Positions 26,508 through 32,408 of a stretch of DNA of 64,000 nt are shown here, one piece after another. The translations under genes were made by a program, and so were the position numbers. How positions within the stretch are numbered: the stretch's first letter is position 1; each line of letters opens with the position of its first letter. This DNA comes from Candidatus Formimonas warabiya. Its GTDB lineage: Bacteria; Bacillota; Dehalobacteriia; Dehalobacteriales; Dehalobacteriaceae. Below the pieces are notes generated by a model. It was not told where the DNA came from. It did no database searches and was given only the letters and a program-made list of their open reading frames with translations. The stretch spans positions 2,740,903 through 2,804,902 of the forward strand of contig NZ_CP017634.1 in the NCBI RefSeq assembly GCF_002777255.1, given 5' to 3'.

Positions 26508-26762
26508 TCACTTCTGTGATTGAAGGCTAAGAAGATCACCCCGGGCTTCAAAAAGTTTCTCTTTAAAAACCAGACCGAACCAAGCCGTTCTATTTCGGGT
26601 AGGCGGATAGCGGTAGAACTTATCATAGACTTTACAAACGGCTTCGCTCATCTCTTCCTGGCTAAACCTAAGATTTTCAGCTATTTCGGTTGCCAGCGGC
26701 AGTAGATCGTAAAAGCCCGTTCGGATAAAATATTCTTCAAGGCTTAAAACGCTATGCTTCAT
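26508..26762 (-). CDS. Small accessory protein of the DDE transposon
   Basis: This 84-residue protein has no recognised domain and is rich in charged and aromatic residues (LSLEEYFIRTGFYDLLPLATE). Its ATG overlaps the ATPase stop codon in an ATGA junction, so it is translationally coupled and part of the transposon operon. It is a possible regulator or targeting partner of the ATPase, by position only. Confidence 0.7.
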   Translation of the reverse strand: MKHSVLSLEEYFIRTGFYDLLPLATEIAENLRFSQEEMSEAVCKVYDKFYRYPPTRNRTAWFGLVFKEKLFEARGDLLSLQSQK

Positions 26763-27559
26763 GAGAGTTCCCCCTCAATAACCCGTTTCACCATCCGGTC
26801 GTCAATGATCCGGTGACCATTCTGCGCGCCGTACATCATCGCGTGGGTACACACTTTGTTAATGAGTCTGGCTGTTCCGCTGGAAAAGCGGTAGATGTCG
26901 TCAAGGGCCTGGTCGGAAAAGATTGCCTCGCTAGTTCCGGCATAAGCCAAATGCTGCCGTATATAAGCGCCTACTTCCGAGCGGTCATAGTAATTCAGTT
27001 TGCACTGCAGGTCAATGCGCTGGCGGATGGCGGCGTAAGATTGCATCTGCAATCGGTCCCAAAGTTCGGTCTGTCCCACTAAGATGAGGGCCATCGGGCT
27101 TTGGGCGTCCATATTCATGTTTAAGAGAAAACGGACTTCTTCCAGCATTTCCTTATCCAGCAGATGGGCTTCATCGACAACCACGACCGGCTGCTGATGG
27201 TGAACCACTTGCATCAGTTCCACTTCCCGGTGCAGCTGCCTTTTAGCGTCGCCCCGGTAAAACTTCGCTTCGTGACCCAGTTGCTCCAAAAGCCCCTTGT
27301 AGAAGTGCCGTGGGGTTAGCTTGGAATCGGAGATATAGAGCACCTTAAATTTTGCGGGGTTCAAGATTTCAGCGTAACAGCGGATGGTGGTTGTCTTTCC
27401 CGTCCCGCAGTCCCCGGTGATGACCGCAAACCACCGGCGTTCGGCGGCGTACTGCAGTCTGCCGAGCGTCTCTTCGAGTACAGGGGATTTATATAATTCC
27501 CCGGTCGGAATATCTCTGGAAAAAGGTACTTTCTCTAAGTTGTAAAAGGATTCAAACAC
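26759..27559 (-). CDS. ExeA-like AAA ATPase of the transposon
   Basis: The ATPase has 266 residues with Walker A GDCGTGKTTT (about residue 50) and Walker B PVVVVDEAHLLD (about 126). The N-terminal MFESFYNLEKVPFSRDIP is typical of ExeA/TniB-type proteins. In Mu, Tn7 and IS21-type systems such ATPases bind DNA and activate the DDE transposase at the target. It begins three bases after the transposase stop codon. The gene looks intact although its transposase partner is broken. Confidence 0.88.
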   Translation of the reverse strand: MFESFYNLEKVPFSRDIPTGELYKSPVLEETLGRLQYAAERRWFAVITGDCGTGKTTTIRCYAEILNPAKFKVLYISDSKLTPRHFYKGLLEQLGHEAKFYRGDAKRQLHREVELMQVVHHQQPVVVVDEAHLLDKEMLEEVRFLLNMNMDAQSPMALILVGQTELWDRLQMQSYAAIRQRIDLQCKLNYYDRSEVGAYIRQHLAYAGTSEAIFSDQALDDIYRFSSGTARLINKVCTHAMMYGAQNGHRIIDDRMVKRVIEGELS

Positions 27560-27562
27560 GTC

Positions 27563-28234
27563 CTATTCCTCCTTTCCTACACGGCGAAAAGAGATAGCCT
27601 GGTTTTGACGGATTTGCCTTTCTTTATGCTTGAGTGTGGCTGCGCTTAAGAGCCTGGAGGAATCCACAGGCTTTACTCCCAAGTGCTCCGGCAATCCCGG
27701 ACGCTTGCCGACACGTGCGCCGATGATCAGTTCTTTAGCTTGCCAGGGGGCATACCCTTGGTATTCGATCGTAAGTTCTGTAATATCCGCCGGATCATAG
27801 ACGACATCCACGGTGCAGCCGATAAAATTGAGACCGACTTCATATTTTTTACTCATGAAGTTTATACAGCCGGACTTATCGACTTTCCGCCGTTCACTAT
27901 GCAAGAAGGCGCTGGCTAAAACATCCGGCTCGATAAAGCGTAAAGGATGGCTGTCGCCTTGAAAGGCAGCCTGGGGGCTTAAGTTATTTTTTAAAGCGGT
28001 ATGCGGTTTATTCTGGTAGCATTCAGAAAGCCAAATTTGAAATAATTCGTTAAGCCGGTCCAAGGTTTTTGGTTTTTCTAAGGCAGCTTCTTTCAAGAAA
28101 GAATCGACGGTCTGGTTGAATTTTTCAACTTTGCCGGTGGCCTCCGGCGAGTAGGGTTTGGCGTAAAGCAGGCGTATCCCCAGTTTGGAACAGGTCCGGG
28201 CCATCCATTTGGTCCTATATTGCTTACCGTTGTC
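27563..28234 (-). pseudogene. DDE transposase, C-terminal half (split by RIT insertion)
   Basis: This is the continuation of the transposase whose N-terminal half lies at 31704-32408. In the frame of this half, codons NGKQYRTKW precede the first internal ATG at 28204. The segment holds the third catalytic residue (Glu in SPEATGKVEKF) and a Mu-type C-terminal beta-barrel domain (SERRKVDKSGCINFMSKKYEVGL). Joined to the other half, it gives one open frame of about 457 residues through VYFD-NGKQYR. The split separates catalytic Asp-2 from the Glu, so neither half should be active. Confidence 0.88.
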
Positions 28235-28258
28235 TGTACTATTCCGAATTCGGAATAG

Positions 28259-28346
28259 TTTCGACTATGCCGAAGAAAAAACTATGCCGAAAGAATCCGG
28301 GGATGTCCTTACATCTGCGTTTCAACTCGAAACTTCGGCATAGTTT
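28259..28346 (+). repeat. RIT left terminal inverted repeat, 88 bp
   Basis: It is identical over 88 bases to the reverse complement of 31623-31710. It contains the 11-base motif ACTATGCCGAA three times: direct at 28264 and 28281, inverted at 28333-28344. Confidence 0.95.
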
Positions 28347-28405
28347 AGTAACTGCGATTTTGTGTCAACATCATCCTGTAAACAAATTTTTCAGGAGGTG
28401 TAGTA

Positions 28406-29650
28406 ATGCACAAAACCAGGATCAAAAACCTAAAAGAGCTGACCAACGCGGTACTGACCGAAATGGGAAAGGCCCATTATTGCGACAGGTATATCAAACA
28501 AGTGAGAAGCACCTGCATGTTGCTGGAAAATATGGCTGACAGAATGGGTAAAAACACGCTTGACGACAAGCTTTCGCAAGCGTTTACCGACGATTCGTCG
28601 CATTTCAGGACGGGTGCGTACAGCGAATCCAGATTCAAGAGACACAGGCGGTGTATACACATTTTAAGAACATACCGGGACACAGGCACATCGGATTGGC
28701 CTTCGCTCCCCCATGGGCCTGTTCCCACCGGGTTGACCGCGCCGCAGTTCATTGAGGTGCATGCTTCATTCGTCCACCACATGAAGGAAGAAATTGGGCT
28801 AAAGAAGAATACGATCGACGGATACAAGCGCTTCGTTTATCACTTTCTCCTCTACTGCGAAGGGAACGGGTGCCACACAACAGGGGAAATTCAAAGCGGG
28901 GACGTTCTATCCTTTTTAGGAGTGTTGTGCAGGGATCGCTATCAACCCACCAGCATCGGCGCTCATCTTCCGGGCTTAAAGCTATTTTTTTCGATGAGCG
29001 AGTCAACGCGCCGACTTCTCGCGACCTTCCCCAAGGCCCCAAAACGGAAGAGGGAAATTATACCCGTGTTGGAAGAACACGAGCATGAGGCATTTGCGGA
29101 GTATCTGAAAACAGCAAACCTTTCAGCAAGGGACAGAGCTATCTGCTGGCTTACGTTCGAAACCGGTATGCGCGCCGTGGACATATGCAACTTAAAAATC
29201 TCCGATATCGATTGGGCAAACGATAGGGTTCATGTTACGCAACAGAAGACATCGAAGCCGTTAGAGCTCCCGTTGCGGGCCACATACGGAAACGCAATAG
29301 CAGATTACCTGCTGTACGAGCGACCATCATCAAACTCAATGCGACTCTTCCTTTCCAAGCAGGCTCCATTTAGACCCCTCTCCAGCCACGGTGCATACCG
29401 AGCAATCCTGTTGAACACATTTCGCGACGCCGGCATTTTTAAGCAGGGAAGGATCTGCGGCACAAGGTTTACCCGCCATAATGCAGCGTCCCATATGTTG
29501 AAAAACGGCGTCCCTCTTTACGACATATCGGCCGCACTCGGCCATGGTGACCCAAACAGCGTGGATACGTATTTAGCGACTGACGAGAATATGATGGCCC
29601 AGTGCTGCCTCCCAGGTCCTTGTGTGGAAGGGGGCGCGGACAGTGAATGA
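28406..29650 (+). CDS. Tyrosine recombinase, first of RIT trio (RitA)
   Basis: The 414-residue integrase-family recombinase has an N-terminal SAM-like core-binding region (about residues 110-215, QFIEVHASFVHHMKEEIGLKKNTI) and a C-terminal catalytic domain. Catalytic Arg is in ETGMRAVDICNLK. The box II region reads RFTRH, so the usual first His of HxxRH is Arg. LGHGDP supplies the later His, and the nucleophile is probably Tyr in DTYLA. The ATG at 28406 follows CAGGAGGTG. It overlaps the second recombinase gene, as in other RIT elements. Confidence 0.9.
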   Translation: MHKTRIKNLKELTNAVLTEMGKAHYCDRYIKQVRSTCMLLENMADRMGKNTLDDKLSQAFTDDSSHFRTGAYSESRFKRHRRCIHILRTYRDTGTSDWPSLPHGPVPTGLTAPQFIEVHASFVHHMKEEIGLKKNTIDGYKRFVYHFLLYCEGNGCHTTGEIQSGDVLSFLGVLCRDRYQPTSIGAHLPGLKLFFSMSESTRRLLATFPKAPKRKREIIPVLEEHEHEAFAEYLKTANLSARDRAICWLTFETGMRAVDICNLKISDIDWANDRVHVTQQKTSKPLELPLRATYGNAIADYLLYERPSSNSMRLFLSKQAPFRPLSSHGAYRAILLNTFRDAGIFKQGRICGTRFTRHNAASHMLKNGVPLYDISAALGHGDPNSVDTYLATDENMMAQCCLPGPCVEGGADSE

Positions 29651-30608
29651 CGCATCTACGGCACTTGACCGTCTGGCTGAGCAATTCCTCGCGTACAAAA
29701 GGGCGTTGGGGCGTAAGTACAAAACGGGTGAATATTATCTAAAAGCCTTTTTGACGTATGCTAACTCAAACAACCCAACCGCCCAAATCCCCACCAGGGA
29801 GCTTGTGTCCGGCTGGTGTGCCGGGGCGGTGGGCAATCCCGGCTGCCTGTACAACATGGCATGCGTTATCAGGGAATTCAGCAGGTACCTTGGCATGAGC
29901 GGATACGATAACGCGTATATCCTTCCGCCCAAACGGGGCGCGCGGTTGGAACCGCATCTGCCCCATTTCTTCGAGTCGGCCGAGATCAAGGCATTTTTTG
30001 AGCATTGCGATAAAATCCAAAAAAGGGGGGAATGGCCTGGGCGGGAATTGGTCATCCCAGCGATATTCCGTCTGTTGTATTGTTGCGGCCTCAGGTGCCG
30101 GGAAGCGCGTATGCTCCTGTACAATGACGTATGTCTTGACGGCAAGCACATTGATATCAAAGCGTCCAAAGGCTGCAGCAGGCGCATTTTCATCAGTGAC
30201 GAACTGGCCGAGGTTTTGAAAAGATATGACAAGCGAATGTCCCGCATCATTCCTGACCGGGCGTATTTCTTTCCGAGGAATCAGCGTGAACCATACAAAG
30301 AAAGTTTTATCCCTGTAAACTTCAACAGAATTTGGAGGGGGGCACTCCCACATTTTCACTCGCCAATCAAGCCTCGCGCATTTGACTTTCGGCACCACTT
30401 CGCATATGCAAACCTGAACCGCTGGGCTGAGCAAGGCAAAGACGTCAACGTAATGTTGGCGTTTTTGATGAGGTATATGGGGCACGCAAATATTCAGAGC
30501 ACACTGTACTATTTCCATTTTGTGCCCGAATACTTCGGGGCCTTCGCGCAAAAAGCGCAAGCGTTGGAATCCCTTGTACCGGAGGTGCCACATGAAGAAC
30601 AGGACTGA
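29643..30608 (+). CDS. Tyrosine recombinase, second of RIT trio (RitB)
   Basis: This is the second recombinase, about 321 residues from the GTG at 29643 (GGAAGGGGG site; an upstream GTG at 29622 is possible). It overlaps the first gene by eight bases. Catalytic Arg is in CCGLRCREARML. Box II reads FDFRHHF, with Phe in the usual first-His place. YMGHANIQSTLYY gives the His and the Tyr nucleophile region. The C-terminal part overlaps the third gene. Confidence 0.9.
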   Translation: MNDASTALDRLAEQFLAYKRALGRKYKTGEYYLKAFLTYANSNNPTAQIPTRELVSGWCAGAVGNPGCLYNMACVIREFSRYLGMSGYDNAYILPPKRGARLEPHLPHFFESAEIKAFFEHCDKIQKRGEWPGRELVIPAIFRLLYCCGLRCREARMLLYNDVCLDGKHIDIKASKGCSRRIFISDELAEVLKRYDKRMSRIIPDRAYFFPRNQREPYKESFIPVNFNRIWRGALPHFHSPIKPRAFDFRHHFAYANLNRWAEQGKDVNVMLAFLMRYMGHANIQSTLYYFHFVPEYFGAFAQKAQALESLVPEVPHEEQD

Positions 30609-31620
30609 AGACAGCGCCTTCTTTTGGAGCATTGCGGCTGAGTTCCTTAACAACTATCTTCCAGACGTCAGGAGGGCGAGTGGCAACACCGTGGAATCCT
30701 ACAGGAATTGTCTAAACCGTTACGTTGACTATCTTGAGTCAGAAAAGGGCGCTAAGCGCAAAAACATCAGCTTCAAAATGCTTGACAGGGAAAACATCAA
30801 GGGATACATGTCGTGGATGCACAAAACCGCGCAACTCGCCCCAAAAACCTGCAACCTTAGGCTTACGGCATTGCACTCACTCTTGGAATACGCGTCACAG
30901 GAATGCACAGATATCACGCCTGTCTGCATAAGTTCAGGCACGATCAAAGGGGTAAGGCTGACGCAGGCACCCATTGAGTTCTTCGAACGGGAAGCCATGT
31001 CCGCCTTGATGGCAACTCCAGACATACGGAAAAAGCTTGAGCGAAGAAACCAGATGCTGCTCGTTTTTTTGTACGATACCGCAGCGCGCGTTTCGGAAGC
31101 GCTAAACGTCAGGTTGTGCGACCTGCACATAGACGCGTCCATACCCCATGTGACATTCTTTGGGAAAGGCCGGAAATACAGGAACGTCCCTCTGATGGAT
31201 AGCACGATGGCGCATCTAAGGCGCTACCTTCGAGAGTTTCATAGGTACGAGCGTGAAAGTACTGGCGCGCCATTATTTTACGCCATGACACACGGGGAAG
31301 CGCATAGGCTATCCATTGATACCCCTGAGAAGATGATAAAAAGATATGCCAAAGAGTTGTCGGATACATGTCTGTCAATGCCGGGAAACGTTCACTGCCA
31401 TATGATACGGAAAACCAGGGCCATGCATCTGTACCAGGAAGGTGTCCCACTGCCCCATATTCAGCAGCTTCTGGGCCATGAGGTTCTCTCCACGACGTCT
31501 GGTTTCTATGCTTTCGCAACGCTAGAGGCGCTTTCGAAGTCGTTGGAGAAGGCAAACCCTTCTGACATGAGCAAATTGTGGAAGGACAAGGAGTATTCGG
31601 AGAGACTTTACAGACTGTAG
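30592..31620 (+). CDS. Tyrosine recombinase, third of RIT trio (RitC)
   Basis: The protein has 342 residues from the ATG at 30592, which has GGAGGTG ten bases upstream; the frame is open further up but without such a site. It overlaps the second gene by 17 bases. The SAM-like N-terminal domain (TVESYRNCLNRYVDYLES) precedes a catalytic domain with Arg in DTAARVSEALNV, an HMIRK box (His and Arg kept), LLGHEVLSTTS, and Tyr in GFYAF. It ends three bases before the right inverted repeat. Confidence 0.9.
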   Translation: MKNRTEDSAFFWSIAAEFLNNYLPDVRRASGNTVESYRNCLNRYVDYLESEKGAKRKNISFKMLDRENIKGYMSWMHKTAQLAPKTCNLRLTALHSLLEYASQECTDITPVCISSGTIKGVRLTQAPIEFFEREAMSALMATPDIRKKLERRNQMLLVFLYDTAARVSEALNVRLCDLHIDASIPHVTFFGKGRKYRNVPLMDSTMAHLRRYLREFHRYERESTGAPLFYAMTHGEAHRLSIDTPEKMIKRYAKELSDTCLSMPGNVHCHMIRKTRAMHLYQEGVPLPHIQQLLGHEVLSTTSGFYAFATLEALSKSLEKANPSDMSKLWKDKEYSERLYRL

Positions 31621-31622
31621 CA

Positions 31623-31710
31623 AAACTATGCCGAAGTTTCGAGTTGAAACGCAGATGTAAGGACATCCCCGGATTCTTTCGGCATAGTTTTTTCTTCGGC
31701 ATAGTCGAAA
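31623..31710 (-). repeat. RIT right terminal inverted repeat, 88 bp
   Basis: This is the exact reverse complement of 28259-28346. Its outermost TTTCGAC (minus strand) coincides with the Tyr-Phe-Asp codons of the interrupted transposase. Confidence 0.95.
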
Positions 31711-32408
31711 TAAACCGCCTCAGGCGCTCCCCATTTTTGGATGGCGTTTCGGAAACAATCCTCAACGATGGCCTGGTCTAAGGTTGGATAAAAGGCGCCA
31801 TGTAGGACAAACCGGGTGGCGTCATCCAGAAAGGTGACTAAAAAGACTTGTTTCTTCGTGCCCCCCGGACCGATTGGCAGATAAGGACCGTACTTGATGT
31901 CGGAATGAATCAGCTGATTGCGAAAGCAGTGCTGGAATCTTCTAGACGCGCTGCCGCTTTCGGTATACATCCGCATTTGCCGGCTGCTGTAACCGCGCTC
32001 ACAGAGTTTTTCTTGCAGGGTGGATCGTTTAATTTCTCCAGGTTTTACTCTGCCTTCCCATTCCAGGATCTGAATAATCTGAGCGATGCTGCGGCTGGGT
32101 ACTTCCCGGCGCAAGAGTATAGCCTGGTCCAAAATAGCGGGCGCAATTACTTTAGATTCAAGTCTTCCCTTGCTTTTTGGCTTAAGCCCGGCGATTCCAA
32201 GACTAAGGTATCTTCCCAGATACCTGCGCAACGTCCTTTCTGAAATACCGGCTTTCTCACAGATATTGTTCTTAAGTTCCTGCACTTTTGCCGGGTCCAG
32301 TCCGCCTGCTAAAAGCGGCAGCACAAGCTGAACTCTGTTTAAGGCTATTTCTTCGGCTTTCTTCTGATCTTTCATCCGTAAACACTTCCTCTCTGGGCTT
32401 TTCTTCAA
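31704..32408 (-). pseudogene. DDE transposase, N-terminal half (split by RIT insertion)
   Basis: It encodes about 235 residues of the transposase before the RIT boundary. There is an N-terminal HTH (GISERTLRRYLGRYLSLGIAGL, about residues 54-75), then the rve/DDE core with first Asp in LIHSDIKYGPYLP (about 170) and second Asp in EAVYFD (235). The frame then runs into the RIT repeat for about 25 foreign codons. It begins eight bases after the DUF6431-like gene. It pairs with the half at 27563-28234. Confidence 0.88.

Follow-up and report, generated by a model that had tools for sequence, protein, structure and literature searches.

The window, which is the whole 64,000-nucleotide stretch of DNA analysed here, contains a complete RIT (recombinase in trio) element. 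Very probably this element occupies an Asp codon of a DDE transposase gene and moves through a circle whose joint offers two interchangeable core sites, leaving the orientation of the element free while the target sets the side on which a short palindrome (P) comes to lie. Across the family, RITs are likely to be active-site-homing transposons, with a near-palindromic circular joint of about 200 bp and with lineage-specific, heritable insertion into conserved codons of other mobile proteins. The motifs concerned would include the Asp and Glu regions of DDE transposases, the Walker motifs of IstB, PQGG of intron reverse transcriptases (RTs) and the catalytic boxes of tyrosine recombinases (YRs). 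The element itself is of a known kind, and both RIT identity and insertion in transposase genes were already known; the interesting part is the family-wide rules for sites and codons.

A complete RIT element with perfect inverted repeats

Three overlapping open reading frames, ritA, ritB and ritC, all match the Pfam family Phage_integrase and are the only genes within the element, which measures 3440 bp from arm to arm. The features of the region are as follows (^ marks the point of insertion).

26759-27559, minus strand: AAA ATPase gene adjoining the transposase, Tn6049-like partner (ORF and family models)
27563-28232, minus strand: 3' part of the DDE transposase, starting ^(D)NGKQYRTKW... 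(rve model spans the junction)
28233-28237, no strand: outer 5-nt coupling TCTGT (ACAGA in the transposase sense), between P and target (sequence; comparison with 36 other RITs)
28238-28259, no strand: palindrome P, 22 bp, perfect, ACTATTCCGAA/TTCGGAATAGT (= ACTATTCCGAATTCGGAATAGT), at one end only; predicted centre of the circle joint (sequence; identical in genomes G120 and G156; signature scan)
28260-28264, no strand: inner 5-nt coupling TTCGA (sequence)
28265-28346, plus strand: RitA-side arm, 82 bp, with motifs a1 (28265-28274), a2 (28282-28291) and inverted a3 (28334-28343) (inverted-repeat and motif comparison)
28406-29650, plus strand: ritA, tyrosine recombinase, 414 aa (PF00589, E 2e-26)
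29646-30608, plus strand: ritB, tyrosine recombinase, 320 aa counted from the ritA-overlapping ATG (PF00589, E 4e-14)
30592-31620, plus strand: ritC, tyrosine recombinase, 342 aa (PF00589, E 5e-27)
31623-31704, minus strand: RitC-side arm, 82 bp, perfect inverted copy of the RitA-side arm (inverted-repeat and motif comparison)
31705-31709, no strand: 5-nt coupling of the palindrome-free end, TTCGA in the transposase sense, i.e. codon F and the first two bases of D (sequence; homologues)
31705-32408, minus strand: 5' part of the DDE transposase, ending ...EAVYF^D (partial IS481 model)

The gene order is that of RITs, and the original prediction of a RIT element with three overlapping tyrosine recombinases was borne out by it and by the three Pfam matches. 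By pattern match, RitA, RitB and RitC all have the catalytic Tyr in a ...GH-x-Y box, and the usual His of HxxR is absent from RitA and RitB. There is no fourth conserved gene in the operon (srap or ginD, as in SE elements or GInt islands), because the RitC-side arm begins 3 bp past the end of ritC and leaves no room for one. Nor is the gene set that of Tn554 (tnpA, tnpB and a non-YR tnpC), all three genes encoding YRs.

The inverted repeats (28259-28346 and 31623-31710) are 88 nt long and 100% complementary, and each carries three exact copies of the motif ACTATGCCGAA, two direct and one inverted, just as had been noted from the sequence beforehand. When one mismatch was allowed, 10 motif matches were found in the window against 0.72 expected, a number reached in no shuffle. 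The repeats had also been taken as the bounds of the element. This stands for 82 bp of each (28265-28346 and 31623-31704), which form the element arm, while the last six bases consist of the 5-bp TTCGA and one base that matches by chance. TTCGA is target, or coupling, sequence, and it supplies the first A of the outermost motif. Outside the left arm, 5 nt away, lies P, made up of two further T-variant motif copies placed head to head.

A search of the whole genome for other copies of the element and for the motif, as had been suggested, gave no second full copy; besides the window element there were one decayed remnant and single stray motifs. The remnant (L019, G000:C1:4420109-4420392) is made of three joined pieces, 85-100% identical to the window element, and its ends are gone. 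RITs are probably mobile, judging from identical copies that occupy different genes in relatives; the window element is single-copy. Perfect repeats had been read as a sign of recent mobility, a reading not supported by a pair of 99.94%-identical elements, L112 and L113, whose arms have diverged (local score 30.8 over 91 bp, against 88 here).

The interrupted transposase

Removal of the element, P and one copy of the 5 nt restores the reading frame. The 5' and 3' parts of the transposase then form an open frame of at least 458 aa, cut at the catalytic Asp codon of Y-F^D-N-G, and intact homologues of the target have YFDNG where the gene is interrupted here. Judged from these joined flanks, the window RIT sits in the second catalytic Asp codon of an IS481-like DDE transposase gene of the Tn6049 type. 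Transposons of this type carry an ATPase gene (Janssen et al. 2010, PMC2864759). Whether TTCGA or ACAGA was the original coupling of the target may be read from the homologues, which have YFD. An empty site of this target was found neither in its own genome nor in G156, and that of the L044 target was not found in its own genome.

Relatives of the element lie at the same place. In G120, a transposase with 37% identity has its corresponding codon occupied by a RIT whose RitA is 44% identical to that of the window; this RIT points the other way and has an identical palindrome. G156 has two copies, with RitB 86% identical to that of the window, which lie at Y-V^D-N-G in opposite orientations. The G120 transposase also contains, 100 bases further on, a second RIT, which belongs to another type and has ends as in L058 (locus L079; G120:C116, complement of 2139 onward). 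It is inserted at the PESKG codons close to the DDE Glu; two lineages thus strike two motifs of one gene.

A common layout of the element ends

Searches with RitB gave relatives in 15 of 150 and in 38 of 399 genomes (own genome counted in each) and in 73 plasmids. Sixty-seven loci were examined, including the window, and the 37 elements with readable ends formed a curated set, in which the end anchors were picked by eye from inverted-repeat alignments. The other 30 loci run into contig ends or have no recognisable repeat, and an automated scan found the signature in 16 of them.

In the curated arms, a1 directly follows a 5-nt stretch, a2 lies 17 bases on, and the inverted a3 is found at 69-73, 81-85 or 91-94 nt, in steps of about one helical turn. 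A probe made of the P half matched with a mean identity of 8.2/10 at offset 0 and 8.4 at offset 17, against 3.0 overall, and all three motifs reached at least 7/10 in 60 of 74 arms (hand count from the probe table). In 34 of the 37 RITs, a single arm has P on its outer side, at a distance of exactly 5 nt; two RITs (L043 and L145) have P at both ends, and the remaining one is truncated. The automated scan covered 68 loci and recognised the signature at 45 of them, with 50 hits at a 5-nt gap, none at 0-4 or 6-9 nt and none in shuffles. Spacings between a1 and a2 other than 17 gave 0-3 hits.

The arrangement of P and couplings is also present on plasmids of Cupriavidus (pHG1, in whose RIT the arm motifs are weak), Agrobacterium (pTi), Rhodococcus, Arthrobacter, Bacteroides and Priestia, and it is therefore not limited to Bacillota. 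The arm layout, too, recurs in divergent RITs of several phyla. A comparison of other RIT ends had been proposed as a check on the three-motif layout, and a1, a2 at +17 and the inverted a3 (at about +71) came back in the 37 RITs with readable ends, with a differing motif sequence. No DNA-level relatives were found on plasmids; scans with single proteins gave one partial relative in genome contigs and none in viral contigs, and the pattern of P plus arm was not found in viral contigs. Equality between couplings varies among elements (window, L044, L056, L110 and L112). In the window, the inner coupling and the coupling at the P-free end are alike and the outer one is different, and no one simple rule fits the inner and outer couplings of all elements.

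The original prediction equated the number of motifs per end with the number of recombinases. All RITs examined do have three motifs per arm and three recombinases, as would be expected if each recombinase acted on its own copy at each end. The invariable presence of three recombinases means, however, that the comparison cannot test this equality, which carries no information. Moreover, the predicted joined site has eight motifs (3+2+3) rather than six, and the motif positions within an element share a mean of 8.0-9.0 identities of 10, so that they form one sequence class, with a1 alone slightly apart. One motif per recombinase is thus improbable.

Several elements have unusual structures. RITs with P at both ends were seen at L043 (G000:C1:3139000-3147500), L145 and L128. 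At L043, the element is bordered on each side by the 5' half of a group II intron RT gene that points towards it, as though recombination between two RITs had inverted the intervening DNA. In L044 (G000) and L048 (G126), the RitB frames are 645-648 aa long, about twice the usual length, and the elements measure 5.9 and 4.4 kb; ritC of L044 is interrupted. At position 807 of locus L137 there is a second RIT end, which has couplings of the RT type (GGGGG / CCGCC) and lies about 1.8 kb away from the first.

Orientation of the element and a proposed circular intermediate

Of the elements with a single P, 20 carry it at the RitA end and 14 at the RitC end, numbers that fit an even split. With the target as reference, P is always on the 3' side where the second Asp, the Glu region or Walker A was struck; RT insertions have it on the 5' side. 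L049 and L050, which are 100% identical over 3467 bp, are inserted in opposite orientations in two different amidoligase genes. Their circular order is RitC-TGGAT-GTTATGCAAAG/CTTCACATAAC-ATCCA-RitA, with an asymmetric P, and the pair L112/L113, likewise in opposite orientations, agrees with it.

In the mechanism that we propose, the three recombinases would make a circle in which the joint reads RitC arm, 5 nt, P, 5 nt, RitA arm. For the window element, the predicted joint is CTTCGGCATAG-5 nt-ACTATTCCGAATTCGGAATAGT-5 nt-CTATGCCGAAG. Within this joint, two core sites would stand back to back, each composed of one P half, 5 nt and a1, with an inverted pair of motifs flanking a short crossover region; a2 and a3 may serve as accessory binding sites. 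The target could recombine with either core, which would leave the orientation of the element free, and the polarity of the target would set the side of P.

Opposite orientations could also arise after insertion, if the segment between the arms inverted in place, by homologous recombination or through the recombinases, while P stayed fixed. The arms of the window element match perfectly for 88 bp, a length sufficient for homologous recombination, and its inner coupling is the same as the one at the P-free end, an outcome that conversion between the ends would produce. With a perfectly symmetric P, as in the window and in G156, the two models look alike. In-place inversion would, however, leave P unturned, whereas the asymmetric P of L049/L050 and of L112/L113 turns with the element and the order RitC - P - RitA is kept. 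In addition, the arms of L112/L113 are too diverged for easy recombination and each stays with its own end. These two pairs make in-place inversion unlikely, and we infer a circle with crossover at either side of P.

Insertion into conserved codons

Targets were read by joining the flanks without the element, P and one copy of the 5 nt, and family models span the restored junction in many of them. At L130, an uninterrupted copy in the same genome (233/240 bases, contiguous) confirmed the boundary. The second DDE Asp is the target in the window (YF^DNG), L101 and L102 (YV^DNG), G120 (YC^DNG), L044 (VY^DNMK), L048 (IY^DNLK) and L137 (HS^DKG), and the first DDE Asp in L047 (WAV^DIT). The DDE Glu region is struck in L058 (PQTK^GKVE) and in L129, L130 and L132 (HEK^GNVE). 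Walker A of IstB is the target in L052 and L056 (GTG^KTH) and in L057 (GVG^KTH), Walker B in L106 (C^DEWGY), and PQ^GG of reverse transcriptases in L112, L113 and L139. Insertions in IS66 were found at GCWA^H (L133) and DNNL^VER (L142). Further targets are SGGK^DST (L054), HKLR^HSYAT (L125), HEL^THA (L143), CGI^HVH (L049) and TTER^YLG (L136); the last has no Pfam match, and its neighbouring gene is annotated as a site-specific integrase. The targets of L104, L110, L120, L123 and L053 have no clear fit.

Within the second-Asp group, every inner and outer 5-nt sequence terminates in GA, with which an Asp codon begins, as if earlier targets had been of the same kind. An arm-only scan of viral contigs gave one locus, L160, where P is present with TCGGA on both sides and the same Asp codon of an IS3-type transposase is interrupted (S^D-RGSQYTS). 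The prediction thus held at a previously unseen locus, though a single one. The idea that target halves mimic the half-sites of the element scored weakly (one half matched at 3.6/11 against 3.1, the other half at 3.6 against 3.5) and was dropped.

The eight second-Asp elements group in a single clade of the RitB tree (97/93), and the RT elements in another (100/94). The target labels take 15 changes against 26.5 when shuffled, with 0 of 500 shuffles as low, a count that is helped by near-copies. The second-Asp clade covers IS481-like, IS21-type and IS3-type targets, in Bacillota and in Actinomycetota plasmids. Target codon type follows the RitB phylogeny. It is very unlikely that RITs insert widely and that selection, not recognition, leaves only the insertions in dispensable mobile genes: although most targets are dispensable (transposases, IstB, group II intron reverse transcriptases, recombinases), tolerance offers no explanation for insertion at one and the same codon of IS481-like, IS21-type and IS3-type transposases, for couplings that all end in GA in the second-Asp clade, or for the clustering of target types on the RitB tree. 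Nor does it explain why six such targets, with 4-11 occurrences of the shared core GAYAA per 1.2 kb, were struck at the same codon each time.

Recognition of conserved codons in multicopy mobile genes would provide many harmless targets in any host. Taken together, the RIT comparison gives exact sites, namely the element ends, the predicted circle joint, the 5-nt crossover region and the target codons. It suggests a transposon family that aims at the parts of mobile genes conserved across hosts, and whose lineages may offer recombinases with different short targets.

Comparison with known systems

Inteins and other homing elements insert at the most conserved, catalytic codons of host genes. 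RITs differ from them in that they are not spliced out, so that the host gene is broken, and in the enzymes involved.

Van Houdt et al. (2012, PMC3414803) described RITs as elements of about 3.5 kb with three consecutive YR genes; the prototype comes from Cupriavidus metallidurans CH34 (PMC3414803; Janssen et al. 2010, PMC2864759). Published insertions in transposase genes concern a Tn6049-like transposase in A. ferrooxidans and an IS66 one in CH34 (PMC3414803, PMC2864759). The window element resembles these RITs in its three adjacent, overlapping YR genes, its size of about 3.5 kb, its terminal inverted repeats and its insertion in a transposase gene, and the RIT of pHG1, a relative of the prototype, has the same P, couplings and arms as the window layout. 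The 2012 survey reported only a 28-9 bp inverted repeat and an overlapping palindrome, which were judged a misfit to usual recombinase sites (PMC3414803). In a 2023 paper, the target specificity, empty sites and movement of RITs are still named among the untested points (PMC10214605). The full layout, the 5-nt rule, the one-sided P and the target codons are not described in the literature searched, whose scope did not extend to Ricker et al. 2013 (Plasmid 70:226), and priority is uncertain.

SE elements and Tn554, as presented in the relevant passages of the 2023 paper, are similar in having several YR-type proteins, a short donor-flank sequence that is carried along, a circular form and sequence-specific targets (PMC10214605). 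They differ in a 6-bp fingerprint, against 5 in RITs, and in four (SE) or three (Tn554) proteins of other types, including a Tfp or TnpC/Srap partner, and the same passages do not mention a central palindrome (PMC10214605). GInt islands (Bardaji et al. 2017, PMC5385486) share with RITs several integrase genes in a row, site-specific insertion and a circular form, but they require four essential genes, ginABCD, are of genomic-island size and have direct, imperfect flanking repeats (PMC5385486).
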